A stretch of 64,000 bases of DNA from contig JAHECD010000013.1 of the NCBI GenBank assembly GCA_024641945.1, positions 1-64,000 on the forward strand, written 5' to 3'. The notes beneath the pieces are model-generated. The model ran no database searches. It had not been told where the DNA came from and worked only from the letters and a program-made list of their open reading frames with translations. Below are positions 23,038 through 37,627 of the stretch, one piece after another (within the stretch, counting starts at the first letter, position 1; the number at the start of each line of letters is the position of its first letter). The stretch comes from Rubrivivax sp. (lineage in GTDB: Bacteria; Pseudomonadota; Gammaproteobacteria; Burkholderiales; Burkholderiaceae_C). The position numbers were made by a program, and so were the translations under genes.

Positions 23038-23625
23038 TCAACCCTTCTTGGGCGGGAAGCCGGTCATGCCCGGGAAGAGGCCGACGGACGATTTCTGCAT
23101 CTGCTCCTGCATCTGCTCGAACAGCGCCTTCGACTGCTCGACGTAGGCGCCCATGAGGTTCTGCATCACCGGCGACTGGCCGGCCAGGAACTGTGTCCAG
23201 GCTTCCGGCGTGTAGGCCGCTGGCGAGTACAGGCCCTTGCCCGTGCCGGCCAGGCGCGTCTGCAGGTCGACGAAGGTTTCCAGATTCTTCTCGAGGTACG
23301 CGCCCATCATTCCCTGCATGGCATGGCCGTAGAACCTGATCAGCTGCGCCAACATCTGCGTGCTGAAGATCGGCACGCCGCCGGTCTCTTCTTCCAGGAT
23401 GATCTGGAGCAGGATGCTTCGTGTGAGGTCCTCGCCGGTCTTGGCGTCACGCACCTCGAACGTATCGCCGGCCATCACCATCGTCTTGACGTCGGCCAGC
23501 GTGATGTAGCTGCTGGTGCGCGTGTCATAGAGACGTCGGTTGGGGTACTTCTTCAGGACGCGGGTGCCACCGTCCGCGGGCTCTTTCGTTGCGGCGGCCG
23601 GGGCCGCGCGGGTCTTCGATGGCAT
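23038..23625 (-). CDS. phaR: Polyhydroxyalkanoate synthesis repressor
   Basis: 195 aa. The N-terminal PHB/PHA DNA-binding domain RVLKKYPNRRLYDTRTSSYI and TLADVKTMVMAGDTFEV is diagnostic. The PHB-accumulation regulatory domain follows (EETGGVPIFSTQMLAQLIRF, MGAYLEKNLETF). The tail has helical QMQEQMQ and ends PPKKG. PhaR binds both DNA and PHA granules and represses phasin/pha genes. AGGAGG precedes the ATG at 23625, and a TAGAAT -10-like box lies at 23659-23654. It implies a PHA-storing host. Divergent from atzF. Confidence 0.95.
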   Translation of the reverse strand: MPSKTRAAPAAATKEPADGGTRVLKKYPNRRLYDTRTSSYITLADVKTMVMAGDTFEVRDAKTGEDLTRSILLQIILEEETGGVPIFSTQMLAQLIRFYGHAMQGMMGAYLEKNLETFVDLQTRLAGTGKGLYSPAAYTPEAWTQFLAGQSPVMQNLMGAYVEQSKALFEQMQEQMQKSSVGLFPGMTGFPPKKG

Positions 23626-23752: not shown

Positions 23753-23775
23753 TCGGTATACCAACACGTGCACCA
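23753..23775 (+). promoter_or_regulatory. Putative GntR operator upstream of atzF (copy 1)
   Basis: A 23-bp element with the palindrome GGTATACC (23755-23762) and, 12 bp further centre to centre, a second palindrome GTGCAC (23768-23773). It matches the element at 31164-31186 in 21 of 23 positions. It ends 2 nt before the atzF GTG start and overlaps a possible -10. A TTGGCA box at 23727-23732 is a possible -35. GTATAC fits the GTNNAC core of FCD-type GntR operators. Repression by the regulator at 30349-31053 is an inference. Confidence 0.6.
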
Positions 23776-23777
23776 CC

Positions 23778-25619
23778 GTGGACTCCACCCCTTCCGCACC
23801 GTTGACCCTTGCCGACTGGAACCAGGCCTATGCGCAAGGGGCCACGCTGCGGCAATCGCTGGCGCGCTTCGCCAAGCCCACGCGAGACGATGACCCGGCG
23901 TGGATCCACCCGGTTCGCCCGGACGAGTTGGCGGCCCAGATCGACCGCCTGGAGTCGCGCGCCGCCCGCTTCGCCGACCGCGCCGAGGCGATGCGCGCGA
24001 TGCCGCTGTTCGGCGTCCCTTTCGCGGTCAAGGACAACATCGACGTGGCGGGCTGGACCACCACGGCGGCCTGCCCCGCTTTTGCCCATGTGGCCACGGC
24101 GGATGCCCATGTCGTGGCGCGTCTGCGCACGGCTGGCGCCGTGTGTGTGGGCAAGACCAATCTCGACCAGTTCGCCACCGGGCTGGTCGGCACCCGCTCG
24201 CCTTATGGCAGGCCTGCGAGCACCTTCGACGCGGCGCGCATCAGCGGCGGGTCGAGCTCGGGCTCGGCGGTGGTGGTGTCGCGGGGCGACGTGCCGTTTG
24301 CGCTTGGGACCGATACCGCGGGCTCGGGCCGCGTGCCGGCCGGCTTCAACCAGATCGTCGGCCTCAAGCCCACACCCGGACGTGTCGGCACGAGCGGCGT
24401 CGTACCCGCCTGCCGCAGCCTCGACTGTGTCTCGATCTTCGCGCTCACCGTGGCCGATGCCGCCGCCGTGCTGGCAGTGATCGAAGGTGACGACCCCGCC
24501 GACGCCTACAGCACCTTCGCCCCGTCGAATGCCACCTGGCCGCAGCACCGGCGCATCGGCGTTCCGATGCTGCCCACGATGGACGACGCCTACCGCGCGC
24601 CGTGGGACCGTGCGGTGGCGCAGGCGCGTGCACTCGGCCATGACGTGGTCCCGATCGACTTTGCACCGCTGCACGACACCGCTGGCCTGCTCTATGGCGG
24701 CCCATGGCTCGCCGAGCGGCATGCCGCCGTGCAAGCGCTCTTCGAACACGACCCCCAGGCGTTCGACCCGACCGTGCGCCAGATCGTCCAGGGCGCGCTG
24801 GAATTTACGGCGACCGACGCCTTTCGCGGTCAGTACGCGCTGCGGGCGGCGCAGGTCAGCGCGGGCTCGATGTGGTCGTCCGTCGACCTGCTGATGGTGC
24901 CCACGGCCCCCGGCCACCCGACCTTCGCCGACGTGGACGCGGATCCGATCGGCGCCAACTCGCGGCTCGGCATCTATACGAATTTCGTCAACCTGCTCGG
25001 CTGGAGCGCCCTGGCCGTCCCGGCCGGCGCCACTGCCGACGGGCTGCCGTTCGGCGTGACCTTCATCGCGCCGGCCCATGTGGACGCGGCGCTGGCCCGC
25101 ATGGGCGTGCAGTGGCAGCAAGCCGTTGCCAGGTCCATGGGCACCACGCTCGGCGCGACCGGCGCCTTCCTGGCCGACGTGACACCGCATCAATGGCCGG
25201 CGGGTGAGCCCACGATGCCGCTCGCCGTCGTCGGGGCCCATCTGTCCGGACTGCCGCTCAACCACCAGCTCGTCGAACGTGGCGCGACGCTGCGCGAGGC
25301 GACGGTCACCGCACCCGCCTACCGCCTCTACGCCCTGCCCGGCACCACGCCACCCAAACCCGGCATGGTGCGAACGCCGCGCGACGGCGCGGCGTTCGCC
25401 GTCGAGGTGTGGGACATGCCGCTGCGGCACGTGGGCTCGTTCCTCGGCGCGATCCCGCCCCCGCTCGGCCTGGGCAGCGTGGAACTCTCCGACGGTCGCT
25501 GGGTGCACGGCTTCGTGTGCGAGGCCCATGCGGTGCACGGCGCCATCGACGTCACCTCGTTCGGCGGATGGCGCGCCTACCTCGACGGCACACCCGCCGC
25601 GCGCAGCGTCCGCCCCTGA
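23778..25619 (+). CDS. atzF: Allophanate hydrolase
   Basis: 613 aa from the GTG at 23778. Hydrolyses allophanate to ammonia and CO2, the last step of biuret, triuret and cyanuric-acid nitrogen use. The amidase-signature triad is visible: Lys85 (PFAVKDNID), Ser159 (ISGGSSSGSA) and Ser183 (DTAGSGRVPA). The second domain (about 450-613), with LPLNHQLVERGATL and YALPGTTPPKPGMV, is the AtzF/DUR1-type C-terminal domain needed for full activity. A TTG at 23691 is possible but would put the operator inside the coding region. First gene of the ureide locus, 32 nt before the ABC binding protein gene. Confidence 0.92.
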   Translation: MDSTPSAPLTLADWNQAYAQGATLRQSLARFAKPTRDDDPAWIHPVRPDELAAQIDRLESRAARFADRAEAMRAMPLFGVPFAVKDNIDVAGWTTTAACPAFAHVATADAHVVARLRTAGAVCVGKTNLDQFATGLVGTRSPYGRPASTFDAARISGGSSSGSAVVVSRGDVPFALGTDTAGSGRVPAGFNQIVGLKPTPGRVGTSGVVPACRSLDCVSIFALTVADAAAVLAVIEGDDPADAYSTFAPSNATWPQHRRIGVPMLPTMDDAYRAPWDRAVAQARALGHDVVPIDFAPLHDTAGLLYGGPWLAERHAAVQALFEHDPQAFDPTVRQIVQGALEFTATDAFRGQYALRAAQVSAGSMWSSVDLLMVPTAPGHPTFADVDADPIGANSRLGIYTNFVNLLGWSALAVPAGATADGLPFGVTFIAPAHVDAALARMGVQWQQAVARSMGTTLGATGAFLADVTPHQWPAGEPTMPLAVVGAHLSGLPLNHQLVERGATLREATVTAPAYRLYALPGTTPPKPGMVRTPRDGAAFAVEVWDMPLRHVGSFLGAIPPPLGLGSVELSDGRWVHGFVCEAHAVHGAIDVTSFGGWRAYLDGTPAARSVRP

Positions 25620-25651
25620 ATCACTGAATCCACAACCCGCGGGAGAACCTC

Positions 25652-26641
25652 ATGACGTCCTCGATCAACGCCCCACGACGCCGCCTGCTGAAGGCCACGG
25701 CCGCACTCGGCACGCTGGCGGCACCGGCACTCGTGCGCGCCCAGGCCGGGCCGAAATTCCGCATCGGCTACTGGCCGATCGCGGCCGGCCTGCCGTTCTA
25801 CGCTGCCGTCGAACTGGGCTATTTCAAGGAGGCCGGTCTCGACGTCGAGCCGGTGCGCTTCGCCGGCGCGCAGCAGGTCATGGAGGCGGTGCTCTCGGGC
25901 CGCGCCGACGGCACCGCCAATGGCACCGGATCGGCCAACATCGCCATCGGCGAATTGGCGGCACCGGGCACCTTCAAGGTCTTCTGCTCGAACCCGAGCA
26001 ACGCGAAGAACGTGCTCGACGAATTCATCGTGCCGGCGTCAAGCACCGTCAAGACGATCGCCGACCTGAAAGGCAAGCGCGTCGGCTCTGGCCCCGGCAT
26101 CCAGAACGTCACCCTGGCACGCACGGTGCTCGAGCGTGCCGGTGCCAGCGGCGCGACCGTGGTCGAACTGCCGATCGGCCAGCACGTGGCCTCGCTCGCC
26201 GCGGGCCAGCTGGACGCCTGCTACACGCTCGAACCCACCGGCACCATCGGCCGGCTGAACGGCACCACGCGGGTGCTCGAGGCTGGCGTGATCGCACGCT
26301 ACATCCTCGGCGACCCGCTCGCGCCTTGGTTCGGCGGCTCCGCCTCGCTGGCCTCCGCCATCATCCAGAAGAGCCCGGCGGAGTCGAAGAAGTTCGTCGC
26401 GGCCTACGCACGCGGTGTCGCCTTCGTGCGCAGCAAGCCGGTCGAGGCGCGGGCCTACCTGAAGGGCTACACACCGATCGAAGGCGCGCTCACCGGCGAG
26501 GTGCCACTGGCGGCCTACACGATGCACAACGAGTTCACGCCAGCCGACATCGCGCACTTCCAGAAATTCTTCGACCTGTTCTCCGAGAAGGGCATCTTCA
26601 CGTCGCGCCTGATGGTCGATTCGATGCTCTACAAGGCGTGA
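25652..26641 (+). CDS. ABC transporter substrate-binding protein (NMT1/SsuA-type)
   Basis: 329 aa. Twin-arginine-like signal (APRRRLLKATAALGTLAAPALVRA) with cleavage near residue 30. The mature protein FRIGYWPIAAGLPFYAAVEL, YFKEAGLDVE, VLSGRADGTA and LKGKRVGSGPG follows the nitrate/sulfonate/taurine binding-protein plan (periplasmic-binding type II). It lies between atzF and its permease, so the ligand is probably a small ureide or related nitrogen compound; the sequence itself does not show it. GGAGAA precedes the ATG. Its stop overlaps a GTG (GTGA). Confidence 0.86.
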   Translation: MTSSINAPRRRLLKATAALGTLAAPALVRAQAGPKFRIGYWPIAAGLPFYAAVELGYFKEAGLDVEPVRFAGAQQVMEAVLSGRADGTANGTGSANIAIGELAAPGTFKVFCSNPSNAKNVLDEFIVPASSTVKTIADLKGKRVGSGPGIQNVTLARTVLERAGASGATVVELPIGQHVASLAAGQLDACYTLEPTGTIGRLNGTTRVLEAGVIARYILGDPLAPWFGGSASLASAIIQKSPAESKKFVAAYARGVAFVRSKPVEARAYLKGYTPIEGALTGEVPLAAYTMHNEFTPADIAHFQKFFDLFSEKGIFTSRLMVDSMLYKA

Positions 26642-26646
26642 AGCCG

Positions 26647-27483
26647 ATGGCCGCCCAGCCCGCCGGCGCCACCGTCGCTGCACCCGCAGCGAAGGGCGTC
26701 GCCCCCCGCGTCAACGCATCGCCTCCGCGGCCTTCGCTGGGCCGCCTGCTTCCGCTCGTGGGCCCGTTGCTGCTCTTCGTCGTGTGGGACCTGGTGGTGC
26801 GCTTCAAGCTCATCAGCCCGATCCTGCTGCCCAACCCCACCGCCACGCTGCAGACGCTGTTCAACGGGCTGCTGGGCGGCTCGCTGCTCACCGACGCGGG
26901 CCACACGCTGTGGCGCACGCTGCAGGCGTTTGCGATCGCCGCGGCCATCGGCATGCCGCTGGGCGTGCTGCTCGGCAGCAACGAGCGGGCTTACCGCAGC
27001 GTGGAATTCCTGATCGATTTCTTCCGCTCCACGCCGTCGTCGGCGCTGATCCCGCTGTTCCTGATGATCTTCGGCGTGTCCGACGTCAACAAGGTCGCGA
27101 TCGCGGCGTTCGGCGCGCTGCTGATCGTGCTCTTCAACAGCGCCTACGGCGTGATCAACGCGCGCAAGCAGCGGGTCATGGCAGCGCGTGTGATGGGCGC
27201 CTCGCGCTGGCAGGTGTTCAAGGACGTGCTGGTGTGGGAGAGCCTGCAGCCGAGCTTCGTCGGCCTGCGCAGCGCCGTGTCGATGGCGCTCGTCATCGTC
27301 GTCGTGGCCGAGATGTTCATCGGCTCGGAGAACGGCCTCGGCCACCGCATCATCAATTCCCAGCAGGTGATGAACGTGCGCGACATGTACGCCTCGATCC
27401 TGTGCGCCGGCGCGCTGGGTTATGCCCTCAACGTGCTGTTTCTCGTGCTCGAGAAGCGCATCGTCCACTGGAGCGGACGATGA
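26647..27483 (+). CDS. ABC transporter permease (SsuC/TauC-type)
   Basis: 278 aa from the ATG at 26647; the GTG at 26638, which overlaps the binding-protein stop, would add three residues and is an equally possible start. After a Pro/Ala-rich N-tail come six helices, beginning LLPLVGPLLLFVVWDLVV. The EAA coupling loop is AARVMGASRWQVFKDVLVWE. It ends KRIVHWSGR. The stop overlaps the ATPase ATG (ATGA). Inner-membrane partner of the NMT1-type binding protein. Confidence 0.87.
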   Translation: MAAQPAGATVAAPAAKGVAPRVNASPPRPSLGRLLPLVGPLLLFVVWDLVVRFKLISPILLPNPTATLQTLFNGLLGGSLLTDAGHTLWRTLQAFAIAAAIGMPLGVLLGSNERAYRSVEFLIDFFRSTPSSALIPLFLMIFGVSDVNKVAIAAFGALLIVLFNSAYGVINARKQRVMAARVMGASRWQVFKDVLVWESLQPSFVGLRSAVSMALVIVVVAEMFIGSENGLGHRIINSQQVMNVRDMYASILCAGALGYALNVLFLVLEKRIVHWSGR

Positions 27484-28301
27484 GCGCCGTGCTGAACCCG
27501 CTGATCCCGCCGGACTCGGATCCGCCACCCTTCGTGCCCGGCCCGCCGGGCACCGAGATCACGATCCGCGGGTTGACCAAGTTCTTTGCCGGCGCGCCGC
27601 TCTACCAGGACTTCGATCTCGACATCCCGAAGCACCGCATCGTGTCGGTGTTCGGCCCCAACGGATGCGGCAAATCGACGCTGATCAACATGATCGCGGG
27701 CCTGATCCCGATCGACGCGGGCGAGATCCTGTTCGACGGCAAGTCGCTCAAGGACACCAAGATCGGCTACGTCTTCCAGAACTACCGCGAGGCGTTGTTC
27801 CCCTGGCTGCGCACGATCGACAACATCGCCTACCCGCTCAAGCTCGAAGGCCGCTCCAGGGGCGAGGTCGACGCGCGCGTGGACGAACTCGTCGCGTCGT
27901 TCGACGTCAAGTTCGACCTCAAGCGCTACCCGTACGAACTGTCCGGCGGCCAGCAGCAGACGGCCTCGATCATGCGTGCGCTCGCGCCCCGCCCCGAAGT
28001 GCTGTTTCTCGACGAGCCGTTTTCCGCGCTCGACTTCGAGATGACGCTCTTCATCCGCGAAAAGCTGCAGGAGGTGTTCATGCAGACCGGCACCACGATG
28101 CTGCTCGTCTCGCACGACCTGGAGGAAGCCGTCTACCTGGCCGACCAGGTGCTTCTGCTGACCAAGCGGCCGACCCGCGTGGCCGAGATCCTGGCCTACG
28201 ACGACGCACGGCCGCGCACCGTGGCCACGTTGTCGGAGCCAAGCTTCATCGCAACCAAGAAGCGCAGCCTGGAGATCTTTCAACGCGAGGTGCGTCGATG
28301 A
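27480..28301 (+). CDS. ABC transporter ATP-binding protein (SsuB/TauB-type)
   Basis: 273 aa. Walker A GPNGCGKST, Q-loop VFQNYREALFPWL, signature LSGGQQQTASIMRAL (Thr in place of the usual Arg after QQQ), Walker B VLFLDEPFSALD, switch VSHDLEEA. The NYREALFPW Q-loop is typical of nitrate/taurine-type importers. It overlaps genes on both sides by ATGA junctions, the downstream one being atzG. Transport and carboxybiuret hydrolysis are therefore translationally coupled. Confidence 0.9.
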   Translation: MSAVLNPLIPPDSDPPPFVPGPPGTEITIRGLTKFFAGAPLYQDFDLDIPKHRIVSVFGPNGCGKSTLINMIAGLIPIDAGEILFDGKSLKDTKIGYVFQNYREALFPWLRTIDNIAYPLKLEGRSRGEVDARVDELVASFDVKFDLKRYPYELSGGQQQTASIMRALAPRPEVLFLDEPFSALDFEMTLFIREKLQEVFMQTGTTMLLVSHDLEEAVYLADQVLLLTKRPTRVAEILAYDDARPRTVATLSEPSFIATKKRSLEIFQREVRR

Positions 28302-28504
28302 CCCCCGAGCAGATCGAACGTTATGCCGATGCGGCCGCCGCCGCACTCGACCTGCCCATCGCGCCCGAGCACCGGCCGGGTGTGCTGCGCTACCTCGCAC
28401 TCGCAGCCGGCTTCGCGGCCCAGTTGGACGGCGTGCCGGTGACGACACACGACGAGCCGGCGGTCAACTTCGCCCCGACCCATGAACCCACCGGAACGAC
28501 GTGA
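28298..28504 (+). CDS. atzG: DUF4089 small subunit of carboxybiuret hydrolase (AtzG/HpxX type)
   Basis: 68 aa. Pattern of DUF4089: MTPEQIERYADAAAAALDLP, PEHRPGVLRYLALAAGFAAQ, then an extended DEPAVNFAPT tail. In Pseudomonas sp. ADP, AtzG is a GatC-like partner that makes AtzE soluble and active. The same gene pair occurs as hpxX-hpxY in oxalurate/oxamate loci. Start overlaps the ATPase stop (ATGA). It is directly followed by the amidase gene, exactly the expected order. Confidence 0.86.
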   Translation: MTPEQIERYADAAAAALDLPIAPEHRPGVLRYLALAAGFAAQLDGVPVTTHDEPAVNFAPTHEPTGTT

Positions 28505-28541
28505 ACGTGAAAGCCGGCCTGTGCAACACGACACAACCCCC

Positions 28542-29945
28542 ATGAACGCCGGCGCCACCCTGCTCGGCAACGCCTGCGCGATGTCCGCCGCGGTGCACCG
28601 TGGCGACCTGAGCTGTGCCGATCTGGTCGAGGCATGCCTTGCGCGCATCGCAGCCACCGACCCGCGTGTCAATGCCTTCACCGACGTGCTGGCCGCCCGC
28701 GCACGCGCCAGGGCCGCCGACCTGGATGCCCGCGGCACCGGCCTGCAGGCCCTGCCGCTGGCCGGCGTGCCATTTGCGGTGAAGAACCTGTTCGACGTGC
28801 AGGGCCTGCCCACGCTGGCCGGCTCGAAGATCGAGCGTGAGGCGGCGCCGGCGATGCGCGATGCCCTGCTGGTGCGGCGGATGGAGGCCGTCGGTGCCGT
28901 GCTGGTCGGCACGCTGAACATGGACGAATACGCCTATGGCTTCACGACCGAGAACTCGCATGCCGGCCCCACGCGCAACCCGCACGACCTGACGCGGGTG
29001 TCCGGCGGGTCGTCGGGCGGCTCGGCGGCGGCGGTGGCCGCAGGCCAGGTGCCGCTGACGCTGGGCTCGGACACCAACGGGTCGATCCGCGTGCCGTCTT
29101 CGCTGTGCGGCACGTTCGGCCTGAAGCCCACCTTCGGCCGCCTGCCCCGCGACGGCACGTACCCGTTCGTGAGCAGCCTGGACCATCTGGGCCCGTTCGG
29201 CCGCTCGGCGACCGATCTCGCGCTCGCCTACGACGCAATGCAAGGTCACTCGGCAGGTGACGCCGGCTGCGTGCCACGCCGCGCCGAGCCCGTGCTGACC
29301 ACGCTGGCGCAGGGCGTCGACGGATTGCGGATCGCCATGCTCGGCGGGTATTTCCAGCGCAATGCCACGCCCGCCGCCCGGGGCGCGCTGCAACAGGTGG
29401 CCGACGCGCTGCAGACCGGCGCGACGATCGAACTGCCCATGGCCGAGGCCGGCCGCGCCGCCGCCTTCATCATCAGCAACGCCGAGGGCGGTGCGCTGCA
29501 TCTGCCCGACCTTCGCCGCCGTGCGCAGGACTTCGAGCCGCTGTCGCGTGACCGCTTCATCGCGGGTGCCTTGCTGCCCGCGGCGTGGGTCGACCGTGCG
29601 CAGCGTGTGCGCCGGTCGTATGCGACGGCGGCTGCCGGACTTTTCAAGCAGTTCGACGTATTGCTTGCGCCAGCCACGCCTTGCGAAGCCACGCCGATCG
29701 GCACCGAATGGTTCGAACTCGACGGCCAACGCCTCCCGCTGCGCCCGAGTCTCGGCCTGCTGACGCAGCCGATCTCGTGCATCGGCCTGCCGGTCTGCAC
29801 CGTGCCGGTGTGGCGCCAGGGCGCCACGCTGCCGATCGGCGTACAGGTCATCGCGGCGCCGTGGCGCGAGGACCTCGTTCTGCGGGTTGCCGCGGCACTC
29901 GAGGCCCGCGGTATCGTGCGCGCACCTGTCGCTGCACTCACATGA
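28542..29945 (+). CDS. atzE: Amidase-signature hydrolase, 1-carboxybiuret hydrolase type (AtzE/HpxY)
   Basis: 467 aa from the ATG at 28542; an in-frame ATG at 28482 would overlap atzG by 23 nt and add 20 non-conserved residues. Amidase-signature triad Lys81 ([12 protein letters not shown]), Ser157 (SGGSSGGSA) and Ser181 ([14 protein letters not shown]). AtzE with AtzG deaminates 1-carboxybiuret to 1,3-dicarboxyurea; the HpxY relatives act in oxalurate breakdown. The flanking atzG, atzH, atzF and biuret-type hydrolases favour the carboxybiuret role here. The stop overlaps the atzH ATG. Confidence 0.84.
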
Positions 29946-30343
29946 CCGCTGCCAACGCCACTGCCATCAACGCCGCCACCGTCGTCGCCGAGGTGCAGGC
30001 CGCATTCGCGCGCTACGAGGACGCGCTCGTCAACAACCGCGTCGAGGTGCTGGACGAGCTTTTCTGGCGCTCGCCCCATACCGTGCGCTACGGTGCCGCC
30101 GAGAACCTGTACGGCTACGACGCCATCGCCGCGTTCCGCGCTGCGCGGCCGTCCGCCGGCCTGGCACGCGCATTGATGCACACCGTCATCACCACCTATG
30201 GGCAAGACTGTGCCACCGCGATGACCGAATTCAGGCGCCACGGCAGCACGGCCGTCGGACGCCAGAGCCAGACGTGGGTGCGCATGCCCGAAGGCTGGCG
30301 CGTGGTGGCCGCGCACGTGAGCCTGATCCCCGCGACCGCGTGA
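29942..30343 (+). CDS. atzH: DUF3225 protein, 1,3-dicarboxyurea decarboxylase type (AtzH/HpxZ)
   Basis: 133 aa, NTF2-like fold. The DUF3225 motifs [40 protein letters not shown] and [21 protein letters not shown] are clear. In the cyanuric-acid route AtzH removes CO2 from 1,3-dicarboxyurea to give allophanate, the AtzF substrate. HpxZ, in oxalurate loci, is the close relative. The start overlaps the atzE stop (ATGA); the stop overlaps an in-frame GTG of the regulator gene. Confidence 0.85.
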
Positions 30344-30348
30344 TTAAG

Positions 30349-31053
30349 ATGCGCCGGATGGCCATCGCGGAACCGCAGGAACGCACCAATCTCGCCGAGC
30401 AGGCCTATGTCCGCCTCAAGGCCGAGCTGAACGACTTTCAGCTCGTCCCCGGCGACCGCTTCTCCGAGGCCGAGCTGAGCACGCGGCTCGGCGTGAGCCG
30501 CACGCCGGTGCGCGAGGCGCTGTTCCGTTTGCGCAACGAAGGTTTTCTCGACCTGGAATCCAAGGCCGGCTGGTTCGTGCGGCCGATCGACTTTGCGCGC
30601 CTCGAGCAGCTCTACGACCTGCGGGTCGTGCTCGAACTGGCGAGTGTCTCGAGGCTGTGCGCGCGCACCGGCCCGGTGCCGGAGCTCGATGAGTTGAAGG
30701 CCGTCTGGCTGGTGCCGGCGGCCGAGCGCCAGACCGATGCACGCGCTGTCGGCGCGTACGACGAGCAGTTCCACGCCACGCTGGTGCGGGCGGCCGGCAA
30801 CGCCGAGATCGCACGGGTGCATTGGGACGTGACGGAGCGCATCCGCATCATCCGGCACCTCGACTTCACGCGCGCAGATCGCATCGAGGCCACCTACGCC
30901 GAGCACGCCAAGATCCTGCGCGCGGTGATCCAGCGCAAGGCCGACCAGGCGCAACTGCTGCTGAAGACGCACATCGAGCAGAGCAAGGCCGAGGTGCGCA
31001 AGATCACGCTGGCCACGCTGCACGAAGCACGCGACCGCGCCGCGCGCCGCTAG
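30349..31053 (+). CDS. GntR family regulator, FCD subfamily
   Basis: 234 aa. Winged-helix N-domain (about 10-75): NLAEQAYVRLKAELNDFQLV, LSTRLGVSRTPVREALFRLR. The FCD ligand domain (about 85-225) has the metal-binding pattern with YDEQFHATLVRAAGN and the EHAKILRAV histidine. Starts at GTG 30340, ATG 30349 and ATG 30358 are all possible. It lies between the two halves of the ureide locus. Its probable operators are the matching elements at 23753-23775 and 31164-31186. Ligand likely a pathway ureide, an inference. Confidence 0.88.
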   Translation: MRRMAIAEPQERTNLAEQAYVRLKAELNDFQLVPGDRFSEAELSTRLGVSRTPVREALFRLRNEGFLDLESKAGWFVRPIDFARLEQLYDLRVVLELASVSRLCARTGPVPELDELKAVWLVPAAERQTDARAVGAYDEQFHATLVRAAGNAEIARVHWDVTERIRIIRHLDFTRADRIEATYAEHAKILRAVIQRKADQAQLLLKTHIEQSKAEVRKITLATLHEARDRAARR

Positions 31054-31163
31054 CGCTGGCCCGTCGCGACGCGACGCGGCGGGTTCGCGTCACCGCGCCG
31101 CCGTGCGGCAGGTTCGGCCGCATCCGTCGTCCGGAATCCGGCACGGCTCTTGCTCAAGTTCCT

Positions 31164-31186
31164 TCGGTATACCAGCATGTGCACCA
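31164..31186 (+). promoter_or_regulatory. Putative GntR operator upstream of the BMP transporter genes (copy 2)
   Basis: The 23-bp match to the element before atzF (two differences), again GGTATACC (31166-31173) followed by GTGCAC (31179-31184). It lies 53 nt before the binding-protein ATG, inside the only gap of the locus (186 nt). This points to a second promoter for the downstream half under the same control. Confidence 0.6.
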
Positions 31187-31239
31187 ACAGCGCCCATGCC
31201 GGTTCATCCCACCGGCCACCGCATGAATGGAGCCCCGCC

Positions 31240-32361
31240 ATGAGCCATGACACCGACCGCTCGCGCCGCCACGCCCTCGCCTCGCTGGGCGCCCTGTCGT
31301 TGGCGGGCCTCTCGCCGCTCGCCGCCCGCGCGCAGAACAAGCTGACCGTGGGCGTCATCTATGTCGGCCCGCGCGACGACTACGGCTACAACCAGGCGCA
31401 GGCGCAGGCCGCGGCCGAACTGAAGAAGATGCCCGGCATCAAGGTCGTCGAAGAAGAGAACGTGCCCGAGACCACGGCCGTACAGAAGTCGATGACGGGC
31501 ATGATTGCGCAGGACGGCGCCAAGCTGCTCTTTCCCACGTCGTTCGGTTATTTCGACCCGCACATGCTGGCGCTCGCGGCCAAGTTCCCCGACGTGCGCT
31601 TCTCGCATTGCGGCGGCATGTGGACCGAGGGCAAGCACCCCAAGAACACGGGCAGCTATTTCGGCTATATCGACGAATGCCAGTACCTGAACGGCGTCGT
31701 CGCCGGCCACATGAGCAAGAGCAAGAAGATCGGCTTCGTGGCAGCCAAGCCGATACCGCAGGTGCTGCGCAACATCAACGCCTTCACGATGGGCGCGCGC
31801 TCGGTCGACCCGAAGATCACGACCACGGTCATCTTCACTGGCGAATGGAGCATGCCGGTCAAGGAGGCCGAGGCCACCAACAGCCTGGCCGACCAGGGCA
31901 TCGACGTGTTCACGATGCACGTCGATGGCCCCAAGGTCATCGTCGAGACCGCTGCAAAGCGCGGCCAGATGGTCTGCGGCTACCACGCGAGCCAGGCCAG
32001 GCTCGCGCCGAATGCCTACCTGACCGGTGCCGAGTGGAACTGGCTCACCGCCTACAAGACCATCGTGGACGCGGCGCTGGCCGGCAAGCCGCACCCCAAC
32101 TTCCTGCGCGGCGGGCTCAAGGAGGGCTACGTCAAGATGTCCGCCTACGGCCCGAGCGTGAGCGCACCGGCCCGGAAGCACGCCGACGACGTGAAGGCGA
32201 AGATGATGGCCGGCGCCTTCGACATCTTCATGGGCGGCAGCGCGGGCCTCAAGGACAACAAGGGCGCCGTCGTGATTCCCGGCGGCAAGGTGCTCAAGCA
32301 GACCGACCTCGAACTCGAGAAGATGAACTACCTGGTCGAAGGTGTCATCGGATCGGTGTGA
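31240..32361 (+). CDS. BMP family ABC transporter substrate-binding protein
   Basis: 373 aa. Twin-arginine-like signal (DRSRRHALASLGALSLAG, cleavage near AARAQ). BMP/PnrA-type fold: LTVGVIYVGPRDDYGYNQAQ, LLFPTSFGYFDPHMLALAAK, KKIGFVAAKPIPQVLRNINA, GAEWNWLTAYKTIVDAAL. Classic BMP proteins bind nucleosides, but several act on other small nitrogen compounds. Here the permeases, biuH and the ATPase share the operon, so biuret or triuret is the most likely ligand by context. The start at 31240 is set by the signal peptide. The stop TGA shares its A with the ATG of a mini-ORF (TGATG). Confidence 0.86.
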   Translation: MSHDTDRSRRHALASLGALSLAGLSPLAARAQNKLTVGVIYVGPRDDYGYNQAQAQAAAELKKMPGIKVVEEENVPETTAVQKSMTGMIAQDGAKLLFPTSFGYFDPHMLALAAKFPDVRFSHCGGMWTEGKHPKNTGSYFGYIDECQYLNGVVAGHMSKSKKIGFVAAKPIPQVLRNINAFTMGARSVDPKITTTVIFTGEWSMPVKEAEATNSLADQGIDVFTMHVDGPKVIVETAAKRGQMVCGYHASQARLAPNAYLTGAEWNWLTAYKTIVDAALAGKPHPNFLRGGLKEGYVKMSAYGPSVSAPARKHADDVKAKMMAGAFDIFMGGSAGLKDNKGAVVIPGGKVLKQTDLELEKMNYLVEGVIGSV

Positions 32362-32477
32362 TGGACCAGCCGCGCAGTGCCGGCGACGTCGCCCCGCGAG
32401 GTGACGCCGCCGGTCGACCGGCCGAGCCGGATCCGCAGGGCCTGCCCGACCTGTCGCCGTGCCTGCACCGACCATGA
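32361..32477 (+). CDS. 38-codon mini-ORF bridging binding-protein and permease genes
   Basis: Begins at the ATG sharing one base with the upstream stop (TGATG) and ends at a TGA that overlaps the permease ATG at 32474 (ATGA). The peptide is Pro/Asp/Arg-rich without hydrophobic segments, and I recognise no family. It may serve only to carry ribosomes across a 112-nt gap. Alternatively the permease starts at the GTG at 32459 and this is chance. Confidence 0.3.
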   Translation: MDQPRSAGDVAPRGDAAGRPAEPDPQGLPDLSPCLHRP

Positions 32478-33565
32478 CGACCCGTACGGCCGATCTGTTG
32501 CTGCCGGTGGGTGCGCTGGCGGTTGCGTTGCTGATCTTCGGCGTCTTCGTGTGGCTCGGCGGCACGAGCCCGGTCGAGACCTGGTTTCTGTTGTTCAAGG
32601 GCGCGTTCGGCGATTGGTATTCGTGGCAGAACACGCTCGTGCGTGCATCGCCGCTGATGCTCACCGCCCTGTGCGTGGCGCTGCCCGCACGCGCGGGGCT
32701 CGTCATCATCGGCGGTGAAGGCGCGCTCGTGCTCGGTGGCCTGGCCGCCGCCGCGCTGCCGTACGCCCTGCCGCTGCCGGACAACGTGCTCGGCACGACA
32801 CTCGTCTGCATCGCCGGCGTGGCGGCCGGCGCGGCCTGGATCGCGCTGGCAGGCGTGCTGCGCCAGTACCGCGGCGTCAACGAGACGATTTCGAGCCTGC
32901 TGCTGGCCTACACCGCCATCGCCCTGTTCAAGCAGTTTGTCGAAGGCCCGTTGCGCGACCCGGCGACGTTGAACAAGCCGTCGACACGGGCCCTGTCGGA
33001 GGGCATGCGCATCGGCACGATCGCCGGCTCCGACGTGCACTGGGGCCTGGTCATCGGGGTGCTGGCCTGCCTGGTGCTCGGGCTGTGGCTCGCCTTCACG
33101 CCACGCGGCTTCGCGGTGCGCGTGGTCGGCGGGAACCCGCGCGCCGCCAAGCTGGTGGGCCTGCCCACGAGCGCGCTGGTGATCCTGGCGTGTGCTCTGG
33201 GCGGCGGCAGCGCCGGTCTGGCCGGTGCGATCGAGGTCGCCGCCGTGCACACGAATGCCAACGCCTCGCTGATCGCCGGGTACGGGTACGCCGGCATCCT
33301 GGTGTCGTTCATCGCGCGCCACAACCCGATCGCGATCGTGCCGGTGGCGATTCTCTTCGGCGGCTTCGGTGCGGCGGGCAGCCTGCTGCAACGCCGGCTC
33401 GACCTGCCGGACGCGTCGGTGCTGGTGCTGCAGGGCATCGCCTTCGTGGTGATCCTGGCGAGCGAGGCGCTGCGTGGTATCGACTGGCGCGCCGCCGCCG
33501 TGCGCCTTCGCCCGCCACCGCCCGACCCGCCGGTGATGATCACGGCGCAGGACAAGATGGCATGA
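32474..33565 (+). CDS. BMP-type ABC transporter permease (subunit 1, YufP/NupP-like)
   Basis: 363 aa from the ATG at 32474. About ten membrane helices. The branched-chain/BMP permease pattern is visible: LVRASPLMLTALCVALPARAG, GLVIIGGEGALVLGG, YRGVNETISSLLLAYTAIAL, FAVRVVGGNPRAAKLVGLP, IAGYGYAGILVSFIARHNPI. The C-tail is Pro-rich and cytoplasmic. Works as a pair with the next permease. The GTG at 32459 is an alternative start. Confidence 0.86.
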   Translation: MTTRTADLLLPVGALAVALLIFGVFVWLGGTSPVETWFLLFKGAFGDWYSWQNTLVRASPLMLTALCVALPARAGLVIIGGEGALVLGGLAAAALPYALPLPDNVLGTTLVCIAGVAAGAAWIALAGVLRQYRGVNETISSLLLAYTAIALFKQFVEGPLRDPATLNKPSTRALSEGMRIGTIAGSDVHWGLVIGVLACLVLGLWLAFTPRGFAVRVVGGNPRAAKLVGLPTSALVILACALGGGSAGLAGAIEVAAVHTNANASLIAGYGYAGILVSFIARHNPIAIVPVAILFGGFGAAGSLLQRRLDLPDASVLVLQGIAFVVILASEALRGIDWRAAAVRLRPPPPDPPVMITAQDKMA

Positions 33566-33627
33566 GCGCGCGGGGCCGCTCCCAAGCGCAAATCCCGAAG
33601 CGCGCAGCGCGAAGGGCTGGCCGATGA
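33562..33627 (+). CDS. 21-codon mini-ORF bridging the two permease genes
   Basis: Starts at an ATG overlapping the first permease stop (ATGA) and ends at a TGA overlapping the second permease ATG (ATGA). The peptide is short and Arg/Ala-rich. As with the 38-codon frame at 32361 it exactly spans the gap between real genes, so it could be a translational coupler. It has no independent evidence of being a functional protein. Confidence 0.25.
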   Translation: MSARGRSQAQIPKRAARRAGR

Positions 33628-34544
33628 GCGCGGAAGTCGTCGCGACCTTTGGCGCAGCCATTCTGGGCGGCGCGCTGCGTGTCGGTGTGCCATTCTTGTT
33701 CGTCAGCCTGGGCGAATGCCTGACGGAAAAATCCGGGCGCATCAATCTGGGCCTCGAAGGCGTGCTCGTGCTGTCGGCGATGGCGGCGTTCGGCGGCGCC
33801 TATGCCAGCGATTCGCCCTGGGTCGGTGTGCTGGTGGCGGCGCTGACGGGCGCTGCGCTCGCCCTGCTGCATGGCCTGCTCTGCTCGCTGCCGCGCGTGA
33901 ACGATGTGGCCACCGGCATCGCGTTGATGATCCTCGGCACCGGCCTCGCGTTCTACCTCGGCAAGCCGCTGATCCAGCCGCAGGCCCCGCAACTCGCGCC
34001 GTTGATCCTGGGCGGGTGGAGCGACTCGGCGACGGTGCAGGCGGCGCTGAAGGTGAACCCCCTGCTGCCGGTCGGTCTGCTGCTGGCCGTGTTGATGACG
34101 CTGGGTTTTGCGCGCACACGCTGGGGCCTGCTGGTGCGGCTCGCCGGCGATTCCGCGAACGCGGCGCGTGCGCTCGGTTATTCGGTCAACGGCATCCGCA
34201 TCGCCGCCACGGCGGCCGGCGGCGCGATCGCCGGTCTGGGCGGCGCCTCGCTGACGCTCTTCTACCCCGGCAGCTGGAGCGAGGGGGTCTCCAGCGGGCA
34301 GGGCCTGATCGCCGTCGCGCTGGTGATCTTCGCGCGCTGGAGCCCGCTTCGCTGCGTGGCGGCGTCGCTGCTGTTCGGCGGCGCCGGTGCGGTCGGTCCG
34401 GCGTTGCAGTCGATCGGCATCAGTGCGGGCTACCACCTCTTCAGCGCCGTGCCGTACGTGCTCACGCTGGCCGTGCTCGTGGCCACCTGCCGCCCCGGCA
34501 GCATGGCCGCGGGCAGCCCGGGTGAGCTGTCCGCCCAACGCTGA
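33624..34544 (+). CDS. BMP-type ABC transporter permease (subunit 2, YufQ/NupQ-like)
   Basis: 306 aa, about eight membrane helices. Motifs [20 protein letters not shown] and [16 protein letters not shown]-like N-region, [40 protein letters not shown], and [21 protein letters not shown] are typical of the second permease of nucleoside-type BMP importers. It is followed after 17 nt by biuH, with the cognate ATPase only after biuH. Confidence 0.87.
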
Positions 34545-34561
34545 GACGCCACGAGGTTGCC

Positions 34562-35236
34562 ATGTTCGTCCAAGCCGACCCGTACCCCTGGCCGTGGAAC
34601 GGCGACCTGCGCCCCGACAACACGGCATTGATCGTCATCGACATGCAGACCGACTTCTGCGGCGTCGGGGGTTATGTCGACAAGATGGGCTACGACCTGT
34701 CGCTGACCCGCGCCCCGATCGAGCCGATCCGCCGGCTGATGGCAAGCCTGCGGGCGCTTGGTTATGCCGTCATGCACACCCGCGAGGGGCACCGCCCCGA
34801 CCTGTCCGACCTGCCGGCCAACAAGCGCTGGCGCTCGCAGCGCATCGGCGCCGGCATCGGCGACGCCGGGCCCTGCGGACGCATCCTCGTGCGCGGCGAG
34901 CCGGGCTGGGAACTGATCCCCGAACTGGCACCGCTGCCCGGCGAGGTGGTGATCGACAAACCGGGCAAGGGCAGCTTCTGCGCCACCGACCTCGAGCTGA
35001 TCCTGGGCACCCGCGGCATCACGAACCTGATGCTGGCCGGCATCACCACCGACGTGTGTGTGCACACCACGATGCGCGAAGCCAACGACCGCGGCTTCGA
35101 ATGCCTGCTGCTCGAGGACTGCACCGGTGCCACCGACCACGGCAACCATCTCGCAGCGCTGAAGATGGTCAAGATGCAGGGCGGTGTCTTCGGCGCCGTC
35201 GCGCCCTCTGCCGCCGTGCTGGAGGCACTCGCATGA
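34562..35236 (+). CDS. biuH: Biuret amidohydrolase
   Basis: 224 aa, isochorismatase-like cysteine hydrolase; converts biuret to allophanate and ammonia. The N-terminus [20 protein letters not shown] and the segment [12 protein letters not shown] are those of characterised BiuH, which I recognise from the Rhizobium enzyme. The catalytic triad is Asp27 (VIDMQTDF), Lys133 (IDKPGKGSF) and Cys166 ([12 protein letters not shown]). The substrate-pocket loop [19 protein letters not shown] is also present. It sits between permease 2 and the ATPase of the BMP transporter (ATGA overlap with the ATPase). Uptake and first hydrolysis are thereby expressed together. Confidence 0.88.
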
Positions 35237-36840
35237 TCGCGCCCGTCGACGCACGCCCGCGCCTGGACGGCGCCCTCGCGCTGGCCACGTTCGCATTGAC
35301 CAAGCGCTTCGGCAGTTTCACGGCGCTGAGCCAGGTCAGCATCGACGTCGCGCCAGGCTCCGTGCACGCCCTGCTGGGTGAAAACGGCGCCGGCAAGAGC
35401 ACGCTCGTCAAGTGCATCGCCGGTTACCACCCGCCGGACGGTGGTGCGGTGCTGATCGACGGCCGCGAGCAGGACATCGCCACGCCGGTGGTCGCACGGG
35501 CCCTCGGCATCGGCATGGTCTACCAGCACTTCACGCTCGCGCCCGGCATGAGCGTGGCCGAAAACCTGCTGCTCGCCGGCGGGCGCACGCCGGCCCTGAT
35601 CGACTGGGCCGCCGAACGCCGCCGGCTCGCCGATTTTCTGCAAACGACACCGTTCAAGCTCGATCTGGACGTGACGCCGGCGTCGCTGTCGGCCGGCGAG
35701 AAACAGAAACTCGAGCTTCTCAAGCAGCTCTACCTGAAGCCGCGCCTGCTGATCCTGGACGAGCCCACCTCGGTGCTCACGCCGCAGGAAGCCGACGAGG
35801 TGCTGGCCTACGTTCGCGAGGTCGCCCGCCGCGGCGAATGCACCGTGCTGATGATCACCCACAAGTTCCGCGAGGTCACGGCCTACGCGGACGCCGTGAC
35901 CGTGCTGCGGCGGGGGCGCCAGGTGCACTCGGGTCCGGTGGCCGGTACCACGCCGCTCGAATTGGCACAGGCCATGATCGGCGACGAGGCCGCCGGCAGC
36001 GCGCAGGCCCTGGCCGCCGGCACCCGCGAGGTCCGTGCACCGGTGCCCGACGATGCCGTGCCGGTGCTCGTGATCGACGACCTGCGGGCGCTCGGCGACC
36101 GCGGCACGCTGGCCGTGCAGGGGTTGAGCTTGCAGGTGCACGCGGGCGAGATCCTCGGCATCGCCGGCGTGTCCGGCAACGGCCAGCGTGAATTGGTCGA
36201 GGCCATCGTCGGCCAGCGGCCACGCCTGTCGGGTGAGGTGCGGGTCGCCGGCCAGCCCTACGCCGCGCGGCGCCACGAGAACCATGCCCTGCGGCTGCGC
36301 GCCTTGCCCGAGGAACCGTTGAAGAGCGCCAGCGTGGCCGAGCTGAGCGTGTCGCAGAACATGGCGCTGCGCGACTTCGACCTCGCACCGCTGACACGCC
36401 GCTGGCTGCGCTTCGGCGCCTGGAGCGAGCGCGCGCGCGCCTGGATCTCGGAGTACGGTATCAAGACCCGCGGCGAGCATGCGCCGATCGGCAGCCTGTC
36501 CGGCGGCAATGTGCAGCGCGCCGTGCTCGCGCGCGAACTGGCGGGCGACGTGAAGGTGCTGATCGCGGCGAATCCTGTCTTCGGCCTGGACTTCGCCGCG
36601 GTGGCCGAGATCCATGCGCGGCTGCTGCAGGTGCGCGCCAAGGGCGGCGCCGTGCTGCTGATCAGCGAGGACCTGGACGAACTGCTCGAACTGGCCGACC
36701 GCATCGCGGTGATGAGCGAGGGCCGCATCGCCTTCGAGGCGGCGGCCGATGCGATCGACCGGCGCACGATCGGCGCGCACATGGGCGGCGGTCATGGGCA
36801 TGACGCGCCGTCGACCTCTCCCGTGGCGGAGGCCGCATGA
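35233..36840 (+). CDS. BMP-type ABC transporter, double ATP-binding protein
   Basis: 535 aa with two nucleotide-binding domains in one chain. Domain 1: Walker [10 protein letters not shown], signature [15 protein letters not shown], Walker [13 protein letters not shown]. Domain 2 has the degenerate Walker [11 protein letters not shown] usual for this family, signature [15 protein letters not shown] and [10 protein letters not shown]. The matching permeases lie upstream on the other side of biuH. The start overlaps the biuH stop and its stop overlaps the next hydrolase (both ATGA). A His/Gly-rich C-terminal tail is not conserved. Confidence 0.9.
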
Positions 36841-37502
36841 AGCACCGCATCGCTGCCCGCCCGTTCGACTACACGCTTGCGGCGGGCGCCACCGCGCTGG
36901 TGGTCATCGACATGCAGCGCGATTTCATCGAGCCCGGCGGCTTCGGCGCGTCGCTCGGCAACGATGTCTCACGGCTCCTGCCTGCGGTGGCGCCGATCGC
37001 GGCGCTGCTGGCCGCTTGGCGCACAAGGGGCTGGCCGGTGATACACACCCGCGAGGCGCACCGCGCCGACCTCTCCGACTGTCCGCCGGCCAAGCGCCTG
37101 CGTGGCAACCCGGCGCGGCGCATCGGCGACCCAGGCTCGATGGGGCGCCTGCTCGTGGCGGGCGAGCCGGGCACTGAAATCATCGCCGCGCTGTCGCCGG
37201 CGCCCGGCGAAACCGTGATCGACAAACCCGGCAAGGGCATGTTCTGGGCCACCGGCCTGCACGAAGCATTGCAGTCGCGCGGCATCACCCATCTGGTATT
37301 CACCGGTGTCACGACCGAGGTGTGTGTGCAGACCTCGATGCGCGAAGCCAACGACCGCGGCTACGAATGCCTGATCGTCGCAGACGCCACCGAGAGCTAC
37401 TTCCCCGAGTTCAAGGCTGCGGCGCTCGAGATGCTGACGGCGCAAGGCGCGATCGTCGGCTGGAGCACGGATTCGAAGACGCTGCTGGCGGCGCTGTACT
37501 GA
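36837..37502 (+). CDS. trtA: Isochorismatase-like hydrolase, candidate triuret hydrolase
   Basis: 221 aa, clear paralogue of the biuH product two genes upstream. Shared blocks are [52 protein letters not shown] and [20 protein letters not shown]. Triad Asp25, Lys130, Cys163. It differs from BiuH in the pocket loop (NPARRIGD instead of [11 protein letters not shown]), in having PGSMGR for AGPCGR, and in lacking the DPYPWPWN leader. Triuret hydrolase (TrtA) is known to be a BiuH relative encoded beside biuH and makes carboxybiuret plus ammonia. That is the best fit here; a ureidoacrylate- or other ureide hydrolase remains possible. Last gene of the locus. Confidence 0.68.
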
Positions 37503-37550: not shown

Positions 37551-37627
37551 TGGTCGGGGTGAAAGGATTCGAACCTTCGACCCATTGCTCCCAAAGCAAT
37601 TGCGCTACCAGGCTGCGCTACACCCCG
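37551..37627 (-). tRNA. tRNA-Pro (anticodon UGG)
   Basis: 77 nt with encoded CCA. Acceptor CGGGGTG pairs with CACCCCG. D-arm GTAGCGCAGCCTGGTAGCGC, anticodon loop TTTGGGA with TGG, T-arm AGGTTCGAATCCT. A sigma-70 promoter lies at 37639-37666. Confidence 0.97.

Follow-up and report, generated by a model that had tools for sequence, protein, structure and literature searches.

Can a bacterium carry triuret to allophanate through 1-carboxybiuret and 1,3-dicarboxyurea, without passing through biuret? This question is raised by a locus at positions 23778-37502 of a 64,000-nucleotide stretch from Rubrivivax sp. (assembly GCA_024641945.1, contig JAHECD010000013.1, positions 1 to 64,000, forward strand), which we refer to at its full length as the window. 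The locus consists of 14 plus-strand genes, in the order atzF, ATP-binding cassette (ABC) importer 1, atzG-atzE-atzH, gntR and bmpA-nupB-nupC-biuH-nupA-trtA, with gene families assigned using NCBIfam, Pfam and solved-structure searches. An initial annotation had listed AtzF, AtzG, AtzE, AtzH, BiuH, a second BiuH-like hydrolase, two ABC importers and a GntR regulator, all on one strand, and we found each of them there on the plus strand. We consider it probable that this is a two-module triuret/biuret nitrogen-scavenging locus, in which an AtzEG/AtzH route runs beside BiuH; the substrates of its enzymes and importers, its regulation and how flux divides between the branches in the organism are what we infer from the DNA.

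In the route that we propose, the two ABC importers would bring in ureides, and TrtA would take one ammonia off triuret to give unstable 1-carboxybiuret. AtzEG would deaminate carboxybiuret to 1,3-dicarboxyurea, AtzH would decarboxylate the latter to allophanate, and AtzF would split allophanate into ammonia and CO2. BiuH would recover imported biuret along with any carboxybiuret that had decayed before capture, a branch that would also end in allophanate, and the GntR protein would probably govern both modules through a shared 22-bp site. AtzEG is reported to act on carboxybiuret in Pseudomonas sp. strain ADP (PMC7948467), and AtzH is reported to speed the cascade only when AtzF is active (PMC6219798).

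The two hydrolases, BiuH (34562-35236) and the product of the last gene (36837-37502), share 107 identical residues over 221 aligned positions. BiuH scored 423 bits against the 370-bit cut-off of the NCBIfam BiuH equivalog profile, whereas the second hydrolase scored 249 bits, below that cut-off, and had its best solved structure in TrtA (6xix, E 2.3e-86, versus E 3.3e-57 for BiuH 6azo). Six positions are described as setting TrtA apart from BiuH: 35, 41, 134, 160, 187 and 205 (PMC7948467). The second hydrolase has the TrtA residues Phe, Asn, Glu, Tyr and Ile at positions 35, 41, 160, 187 and 205 and keeps the shared Gln202, a state written below as FNEYQI; in its own numbering these are F36, N42, E161, Y188, Q203 and I206, beside the catalytic D25, K130 and C163. 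At the same six positions, the product of the gene at 34562 carries Tyr, Tyr, Ser, Asp, Thr and Val, which is the BiuH state (YYDTQV). We therefore rejected the second hydrolase as another BiuH on both its residue state and its profile score: the protein described as a second BiuH-like hydrolase is present, but it is TrtA-type rather than BiuH at five of the six discriminating residues.

To place the locus among its relatives, we used two sets of trtA loci. Set A holds the best 80 of at least 505 confirmed TrtA relatives and is biased to near kin, while set B holds 51 loci from one even draw of 399 Burkholderiales genomes, of which 50 TrtA-type loci were kept and one (L167, not TrtA-type) was dropped. 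Loci were called TrtA-type when they had at least four of the FNEYQI residues, and the full pattern was found in 80/80 set A and 50/50 set B TrtA-type loci. This constancy and the five residues in the TrtA state make it highly improbable that the protein acts on some ureide other than triuret, a reading to which two observations lend something. Its position 134 (Met135 in the window protein) is Met, neither the Ala of TrtA nor the Ser of BiuH, and a TrtA-type protein occurs in a quite different context, with FdrA, DUF1116 and carbamate kinase, on an E. coli plasmid. Since an A134S change in TrtA is reported to be harmless (PMC7948467), we regard Ala134 as a consensus and not a functional mark of TrtA. 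The plasmid gene (L087, 8980-16190, on pMTY17668_IncF) has the FNEYQI state and also lies beside DUF2877 and cytosine permease genes; 77 Escherichia plasmid records matched TrtA at E up to 1e-60, with the context viewed in pMTY17668_IncF only. Separately, L143 and L148 each carry a pair of TrtA-type genes on the same strand; between these, on the opposite strand, lie gntR and an atzF match that is long in L148 and short in L143.

The enzymes downstream of TrtA in the proposed route are encoded in the first module. The atzF gene (23778-25619; 613 aa from a GTG start) encodes amidase (PF01425) and AH_C (PF21986) domains and exceeded the NCBIfam allophanate hydrolase cut-off; its true start is uncertain because the GTG falls 2 bases past an operator-like site. 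AtzE (28542-29945; 467 aa, with an alternative ATG at 28482), a predicted 1-carboxybiuret hydrolase subunit, matched the AtzE of PDB 6c62 at E 9e-163 and exceeded the NCBIfam AtzE cut-off. The small subunit AtzG (28298-28504; PF13318) matched chain C of 6c62 weakly (E 0.002), and its gene adjoins that of AtzE. AtzH (29942-30343; 133 aa; PF11533) is dicarboxyurea decarboxylase-like and matched the AtzH structure 6bjt.

In the atrazine-type pathway carboxybiuret follows from cyanuric acid hydrolase (AtzD), and the initial annotation had claimed that none is present here. We found no PF09663 match in the window's genome, reported to be 100% complete, while pADP-1, G181, G015 and G409 were positive in the same search, which upholds that claim genome-wide. 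Carboxybiuret here would therefore have to come from TrtA, and a cyanuric acid operon was ruled out as the identity of the locus. In L139 (genome G181, of the window's family), a single cluster brings together atzD, trtA, biuH and atzF with an atzH homologue that lacks an atzE partner, and thus pairs the triuret and cyanuric acid entry points.

We found that AtzE co-occurs with TrtA far above background, in a genome survey of the kind that the initial annotation had proposed. Among the 399 Burkholderiales genomes, AtzE (E up to 1e-120; 46 genomes positive) was present in 30/50 genomes with TrtA, or 29/49 without the window, compared to 16/349 without TrtA (Fisher p 1.5e-20, kinship not corrected for). 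Here, 56 genomes matched TrtA and 50 were counted, window included; G203 (the genome of L167) was excluded by its residues, and G124, G136, G258, G296 and G384 were taken as not TrtA from 49-51% identity alone. The two genes lie within 10 kb of each other in 18 of the 30 genomes with both. Genes of the AtzD family (E up to 1e-60) were found in 23/399 genomes, and barbiturase-like proteins may be among these matches. As read by eye from tables, 17/46 AtzE genomes had such a gene, 3/46 within 10 kb, and 20/30 genomes with TrtA and AtzE had none. Together, these counts indicate that in Burkholderiales AtzE accompanies TrtA more than it does AtzD.

To count neighbors we used full-flank loci, with at least 7 kb on either side of trtA, which left out 30/80 loci of set A and 15/50 of set B; the plasmid loci L083-L087 were hand-picked and stand outside the rates. 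Set A (n=50) had atzE in 27 loci, 26 of them with atzH (the other, L025, carries an atzD), atzH without atzE in 9, a ChrR-type cupin in 5 and none of these in 9. Set B (n=35) had atzE with atzH in 16, atzH without atzE in 5 and none in 14. All five cupins were in set A, and none occurred together with atzE or atzH in the 80 set A and 50 set B loci, although the cupin was recognized by one query and divergent cupins may have been missed. The atzE-atzH pair was found in three arrangements: upstream of bmpA as in the window; downstream of trtA, in alphaproteobacteria and several Burkholderiales families; and as atzE-atzH-trtA directly, in L023, L058, L072, L118, L136 and L137. On a tree of the operon core, atzE presence required at least 14 changes across 74 loci, so the gene has been gained and lost often. 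With this many related trtA loci, a one-off locus was ruled out.

Other genes recur in these loci as well. A 5-formyltetrahydrofolate cyclo-ligase-like protein was found in 14/80 set A loci (e.g., L012, L013, L020, L030, L073 and L076; the L030 copy matches PF01812); the gene separates atzE from atzH in 7 of these loci and trtA from atzH in 6, and in the last one it follows trtA at the end of a contig. A gene annotated as formamidase in L085 (5611-6618) was present in 24/80 set A and 11/50 set B loci and lay between nupC and biuH in 23/24 and 11/11 of them, with or without atzE; in the 24th set A locus, nothing matched before that gene. Finally, some rhizobial and marine loci (L062, 10662-10997; L064, 10629-10982; L083 and L086) have a gene for a small ChrR-type cupin (PF12973) after trtA; this cupin is a candidate carboxybiuret decarboxylase.

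Genomes without a BiuH-type match bear on whether the route can work by itself. We searched 18 whole genomes with the window BiuH, partly picked because their loci lacked biuH, and found no BiuH-type match in five, all of which carry trtA and atzE-atzH: a Hydrogenophaga metagenome-assembled genome (G001, locus L058), Hylemonella gracilis ATCC 19624 (G002, L023), Caenimonas sp. SL110 (G003, L072), G201 and G350. The top match in these five was their own TrtA (50-52% identity), and the other matches in G002 and G003 were at E 6e-36 or worse, compared to E 1e-100 or better for clear BiuH elsewhere. On the other hand, G015, G128 and G167 have trtA loci without biuH but a BiuH-like gene (69-87% identity) elsewhere in the genome, and G352, which has no BiuH-like gene, was not counted because it is 87% complete. 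An atzF match was present in all 10 genomes searched for it, covering approximately residues 74-608 of 613 in G001-G003; the match was partial in G350 and partial with an internal stop in G201. AtzD was found in none of the five. L058 forms a compact run of atzF, importer 1, atzG, atzE, atzH, trtA and gntR. There, of the enzymes covered by the searches, TrtA-AtzEG-AtzH-AtzF makes up the one complete route predicted. Taken together, the genomes without a BiuH-type match suggest that a biuret-free route can work alone.

We regard the triuret-carboxybiuret-dicarboxyurea-allophanate route put forward in the initial annotation as supported in part: it is not contradicted by the TrtA residues, the lack of AtzD, the co-occurrence or the genomes without a BiuH-type match, but the window locus itself retains biuH. 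An alternative is that flux runs through biuret, with carboxybiuret decaying or being decarboxylated fast, BiuH and AtzF doing the work and AtzEGH forming a side branch that is minor or in decay. In its favor, the window has an intact BiuH, triuret degradation as published passes through biuret (PMC7948467), and 23/50 set A and 19/35 set B full-flank loci have trtA without atzE. However, atzE and atzH of the window have intact reading frames, AtzH retains its pocket residues, and no separate decarboxylase candidate was found: there was no second AtzH homologue in the window's genome and no ChrR-type cupin match in the locus, to which the cupin search was confined. Carboxybiuret, the reported TrtA product, is also said to last minutes, with a half-life of ~20 min (PMC7948467). 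We regard flux mainly through biuret as distinctly unlikely.

The AtzH proteins themselves point to a difference between loci with and without AtzE. Nine AtzH pocket residues have been described (Tyr22, Arg46, Arg63, Arg66, Arg73, Phe94, Arg96, Gln106 and Gln108; Esquirol et al. 2018, PMC6219798), and the window AtzH keeps 9/9 (YRRRRFRQQ), Arg66 included. Residue 66 was Arg in 48/48 AtzH whose loci contain atzE (the window among them) and in 8/8 AtzH from cyanuric, hpx and other contexts, whereas it was Arg in 0/22 AtzH-like proteins from loci without atzE (Gln 9, Leu 4, Thr 3, Cys 3, Val 2, Ser 1). These 22 include the AtzH of L084 and L085, and "without atzE" means that none was present in the stretch fetched; the six set B members among them also had no AtzE match genome-wide. 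No other alignment column split fully by atzE presence. Since the AtzH alignment offers too few columns for a resolved tree, we used the operon-core tree for a pair test, in which Arg66 followed AtzE in 7/7 independent supported pairs (sign test p 0.016; 57 rows, of which 38 have atzE and 19 do not); three of the 22 lone AtzH, near contig ends, and AtzH rows with fewer than three of four core genes were left out. AtzH homologues without an AtzE partner have probably shed a charge that matches the second carboxylate of dicarboxyurea and probably act on carboxybiuret, although the lone copies may instead be imported homologues rather than changed ones.

To relate the AtzE of trtA loci to the characterized enzyme, we built a tree of 54 AtzE rows with IQ-TREE (ultrafast bootstrap/SH-aLRT; root not inferred; L170 dropped as a very long branch). 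The AtzE of strain ADP fell within a clade of 10 rows (100/100), the others being eight trtA-locus AtzE and the L172 AtzE, which comes from another operon with an AtzD-type gene; its nearest row was L046 (98/77). The AtzE of L058, L023 and L072, from genomes without a BiuH-type match, are 71-73% identical to ADP AtzE. Such nesting suggests that AtzE moved from triuret loci into the cyanuric acid operon, although the direction is not fixed by a tree whose root was not inferred. The initial annotation had allowed that AtzE, AtzG and AtzH homologues might act only on oxalurate or oxamate; the position of ADP AtzE among trtA-locus AtzE makes this unlikely, while the window AtzE itself belongs to another clade.

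A related alternative is that AtzEGH serves another ureide or oxamate-like substrate brought in by the NMT1-type importer, like HpxXYZ, and that TrtA-BiuH is separate, with only AtzF and the regulator shared. Homologues of AtzG, AtzE and AtzH do occur in gamma-glutamyltransferase (GGT)/purine contexts without TrtA, 16/46 AtzE genomes lack TrtA, and each module of the window has its own importer and its own copy of the 22-bp site. Against this stand the strong AtzE-TrtA association, the several arrangements in which atzE-atzH directly adjoins trtA, the trtA-atzE-atzH genomes without a BiuH-type match and the nesting of the characterized carboxybiuret hydrolase among trtA-locus AtzE. A GGT-like (HpxW) gene was found in 0/14 locus genes, which also ruled out an HPX oxalurate cluster as the identity of the locus. 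Altogether, we judge a separate AtzEGH function to be unlikely.

Extending the route beyond the window, we tentatively propose, at somewhat less than even expectation, that AtzG-AtzE-AtzH is mainly a triuret-pathway system, at least in Burkholderiales, borrowed by the cyanuric acid operon. The TrtA product would be handled interchangeably by AtzEG with an Arg66 AtzH acting on dicarboxyurea, by a lone AtzH without Arg66 decarboxylating carboxybiuret directly, or by an alphaproteobacterial ChrR-type cupin, and residue 66 would mark the AtzH substrate switch. Several findings count against the triuret route or this extension of it. AtzE is missing from 20/50 TrtA genomes, and 12/30 genomes with both keep trtA and atzE more than 10 kb apart, including G250, where they are 15 kb apart on the same contig, and G039 and G294, where atzE-atzH adjoins BiuH and trtA is on another contig. 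The short, divergent atzG was detected in 26/48 atzE loci. The window AtzE, 60% identical to ADP AtzE and 56% to HpxY, lies outside the ADP clade, in a separate 16-row trtA-locus clade (100/99), and HpxY of Klebsiella and Serratia branches inside the AtzE tree, where it has a long stem and joins five trtA-locus rows (95/93), so family members can change specificity. This placement also favors a separate AtzEGH function, as does the NCBIfam label of the AtzH family, HpxZ, for oxalurate catabolism. For residue 66, the tree of AtzH itself has one independent pair on supported branches, and R66A and R66K are not among the reduced-rate AtzH variants as reported in PMC6219798.

The two modules share an operator-like site, CGGTATACCAACACGTGCACCA (23754-23775, plus strand), which ends 2 bases before the atzF start as set, and CGGTATACCAGCATGTGCACCA (31165-31186, plus strand), which ends 53 bases before bmpA; the two are identical at 20/22 positions. 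A degenerate 22-mer derived from the two sites themselves had a shuffle expectation of 0.00 in the window at 3 mismatches and, with up to 3 mismatches, matched just these two sites in the whole 5.02-Mb genome. Related sites (3-5 mismatches) start 59-187 bases before the bmpA match in seven loci (L003, L004, L006, L008, L009, L010 and L027). Ten more matches (4-5 mismatches) precede no gene concerned and look like chance, and shuffled patterns likewise gave 10 matches in a rough control. The GntR/FCD regulator (30358-31053) probably binds these sites and controls both modules.

Importer 1 comprises an NMT1/SsuA-like substrate-binding protein (25652-26641), a permease (26647-27483; PF00528) and an ATPase (27480-28301; PF00005). 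Its binding protein was found in 5/27 set A and 1/16 set B full-flank atzE loci, a count that 10-kb flanks may have cut short, so importer 1 is not a constant partner of atzE. In L058, however, importer 1 is found next to trtA and nothing in the stretch matches bmpA, an indication that importer 1 is able to serve a triuret locus. Importer 2 comprises the BMP/PnrA-type substrate-binding protein BmpA (31240-32361; PF02608), the permeases NupB (32474-33565) and NupC (33624-34544; both PF02653) and the double ATPase NupA (35233-36840; two PF00005 stretches). BmpA is related to AtzT of pADP-1 (6pi5, E 1.6e-60), which is reported to bind guanine at ~110 nM and 2-hydroxyatrazine at 2.2 uM (PMC6834077). 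We infer that either transporter could import triuret or biuret.

The genes of the locus had been described as mostly overlapping, which proved too strong: 4-base overlaps occur at 5/13 junctions, or at 6/13 with the 28482 start of atzE, and between gntR and bmpA there is a gap of 186 bp. Since this gap holds an operator-like site, two transcription units are more likely than one. Just upstream, on the opposite strand, lies a gene for a PHB accumulation regulator (23038-23622, minus strand; PF07879 and PF05233), and RraA-like and TPP enzyme genes lie downstream of the locus. A tRNA-Pro gene (TGG anticodon; 37551-37627, minus strand) lies ~50 bases downstream of trtA on the opposite strand. Of eight related trtA loci, seven gave no tRNA gene and the eighth had two tRNA-Val genes elsewhere, and therefore we drew nothing on insertion from the tRNA-Pro gene.

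What may be new is the combination of known enzymes, which is common in genomes and which we did not find described as a route in the literature searched. No account linking TrtA to AtzEG in one locus or route was found there; supplements were outside the search, and an earlier mention is possible. The claim of novelty in the initial annotation may therefore hold for the route linking TrtA to AtzEG but does not hold for the gene cluster, whose layout is already in Esquirol et al. 2018, nor for the joining of trtA with atzE-atzH, which is common (16/35 set B full-flank loci). The residue-66 pattern of AtzH and the genomes without BiuH are parts that a specialist may find surprising. Triuret is reported to reach farmland with urea fertilizer (PMC7948467) and biuret to be toxic to plants (PMC7700744), and enzymatic capture of carboxybiuret would avoid biuret. 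The AtzGEH proteins were described in 2018 as widespread, with an unclear role (PMC6219798). If the proposed route is true, they would gain a natural substrate independent of synthetic triazines, and this could explain the source of the AtzGEH of the atrazine pathway.

Compared to known systems, the window locus has TrtA, BiuH and AtzF in common with the triuret operon of Herbaspirillum sp. BH-1 and Rhizobium leguminosarum 3841, and its bmpA-nupB-nupC-biuH-nupA-trtA core in common with many relatives, including a Rhizobium etli plasmid. The published triuret route runs via biuret with spontaneous decarboxylation or decarboxylation by TrtB, which is reported to act on carboxybiuret (PMC7948467); in the window, atzG-atzE-atzH is present in addition, and trtA has no lone AtzH-like gene and no ChrR-type cupin beside it. 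A 2025 paper on nitrifiers works with the set TrtA-TrtB-BiuH-AtzF in the body of the paper, whereas for ammonia oxidizers the abstract gives atzH alongside trtA and biuH (PMC12625717). Here atzH could have been written for atzF by mistake, or it could point to an AtzH-like TrtB, and we drew nothing from either. The homologues of AtzG, AtzE and AtzH in Klebsiella are HpxX, HpxY and HpxZ, with HpxY 56% and HpxZ 62% identical to the window proteins, but unlike that oxalurate branch, the window has TrtA and BiuH and no GGT gene. The atzDGEHF operon of Pseudomonas sp. ADP shares AtzG, AtzE, AtzH and AtzF with the window, with AtzGEH in the same order, and pADP-1 also has a BMP-type importer nearby; unlike the ADP operon, the window's genome has no AtzD match and its atzF lies upstream of importer 1. 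The closest description is that of Esquirol et al. 2018 (PMC6219798), who reported Burkholderiales clusters of an allophanate hydrolase, ABC genes in about half, atzG-atzE-atzH and then ABC genes and "amidase enzymes". Because the gene order and the bacterial group are the same, these clusters are very probably of the same kind as that of the window. The passages on them, which predate TrtA, assign no substrate and leave the amidases unspecified, and the window resolves two of these as BiuH and TrtA.

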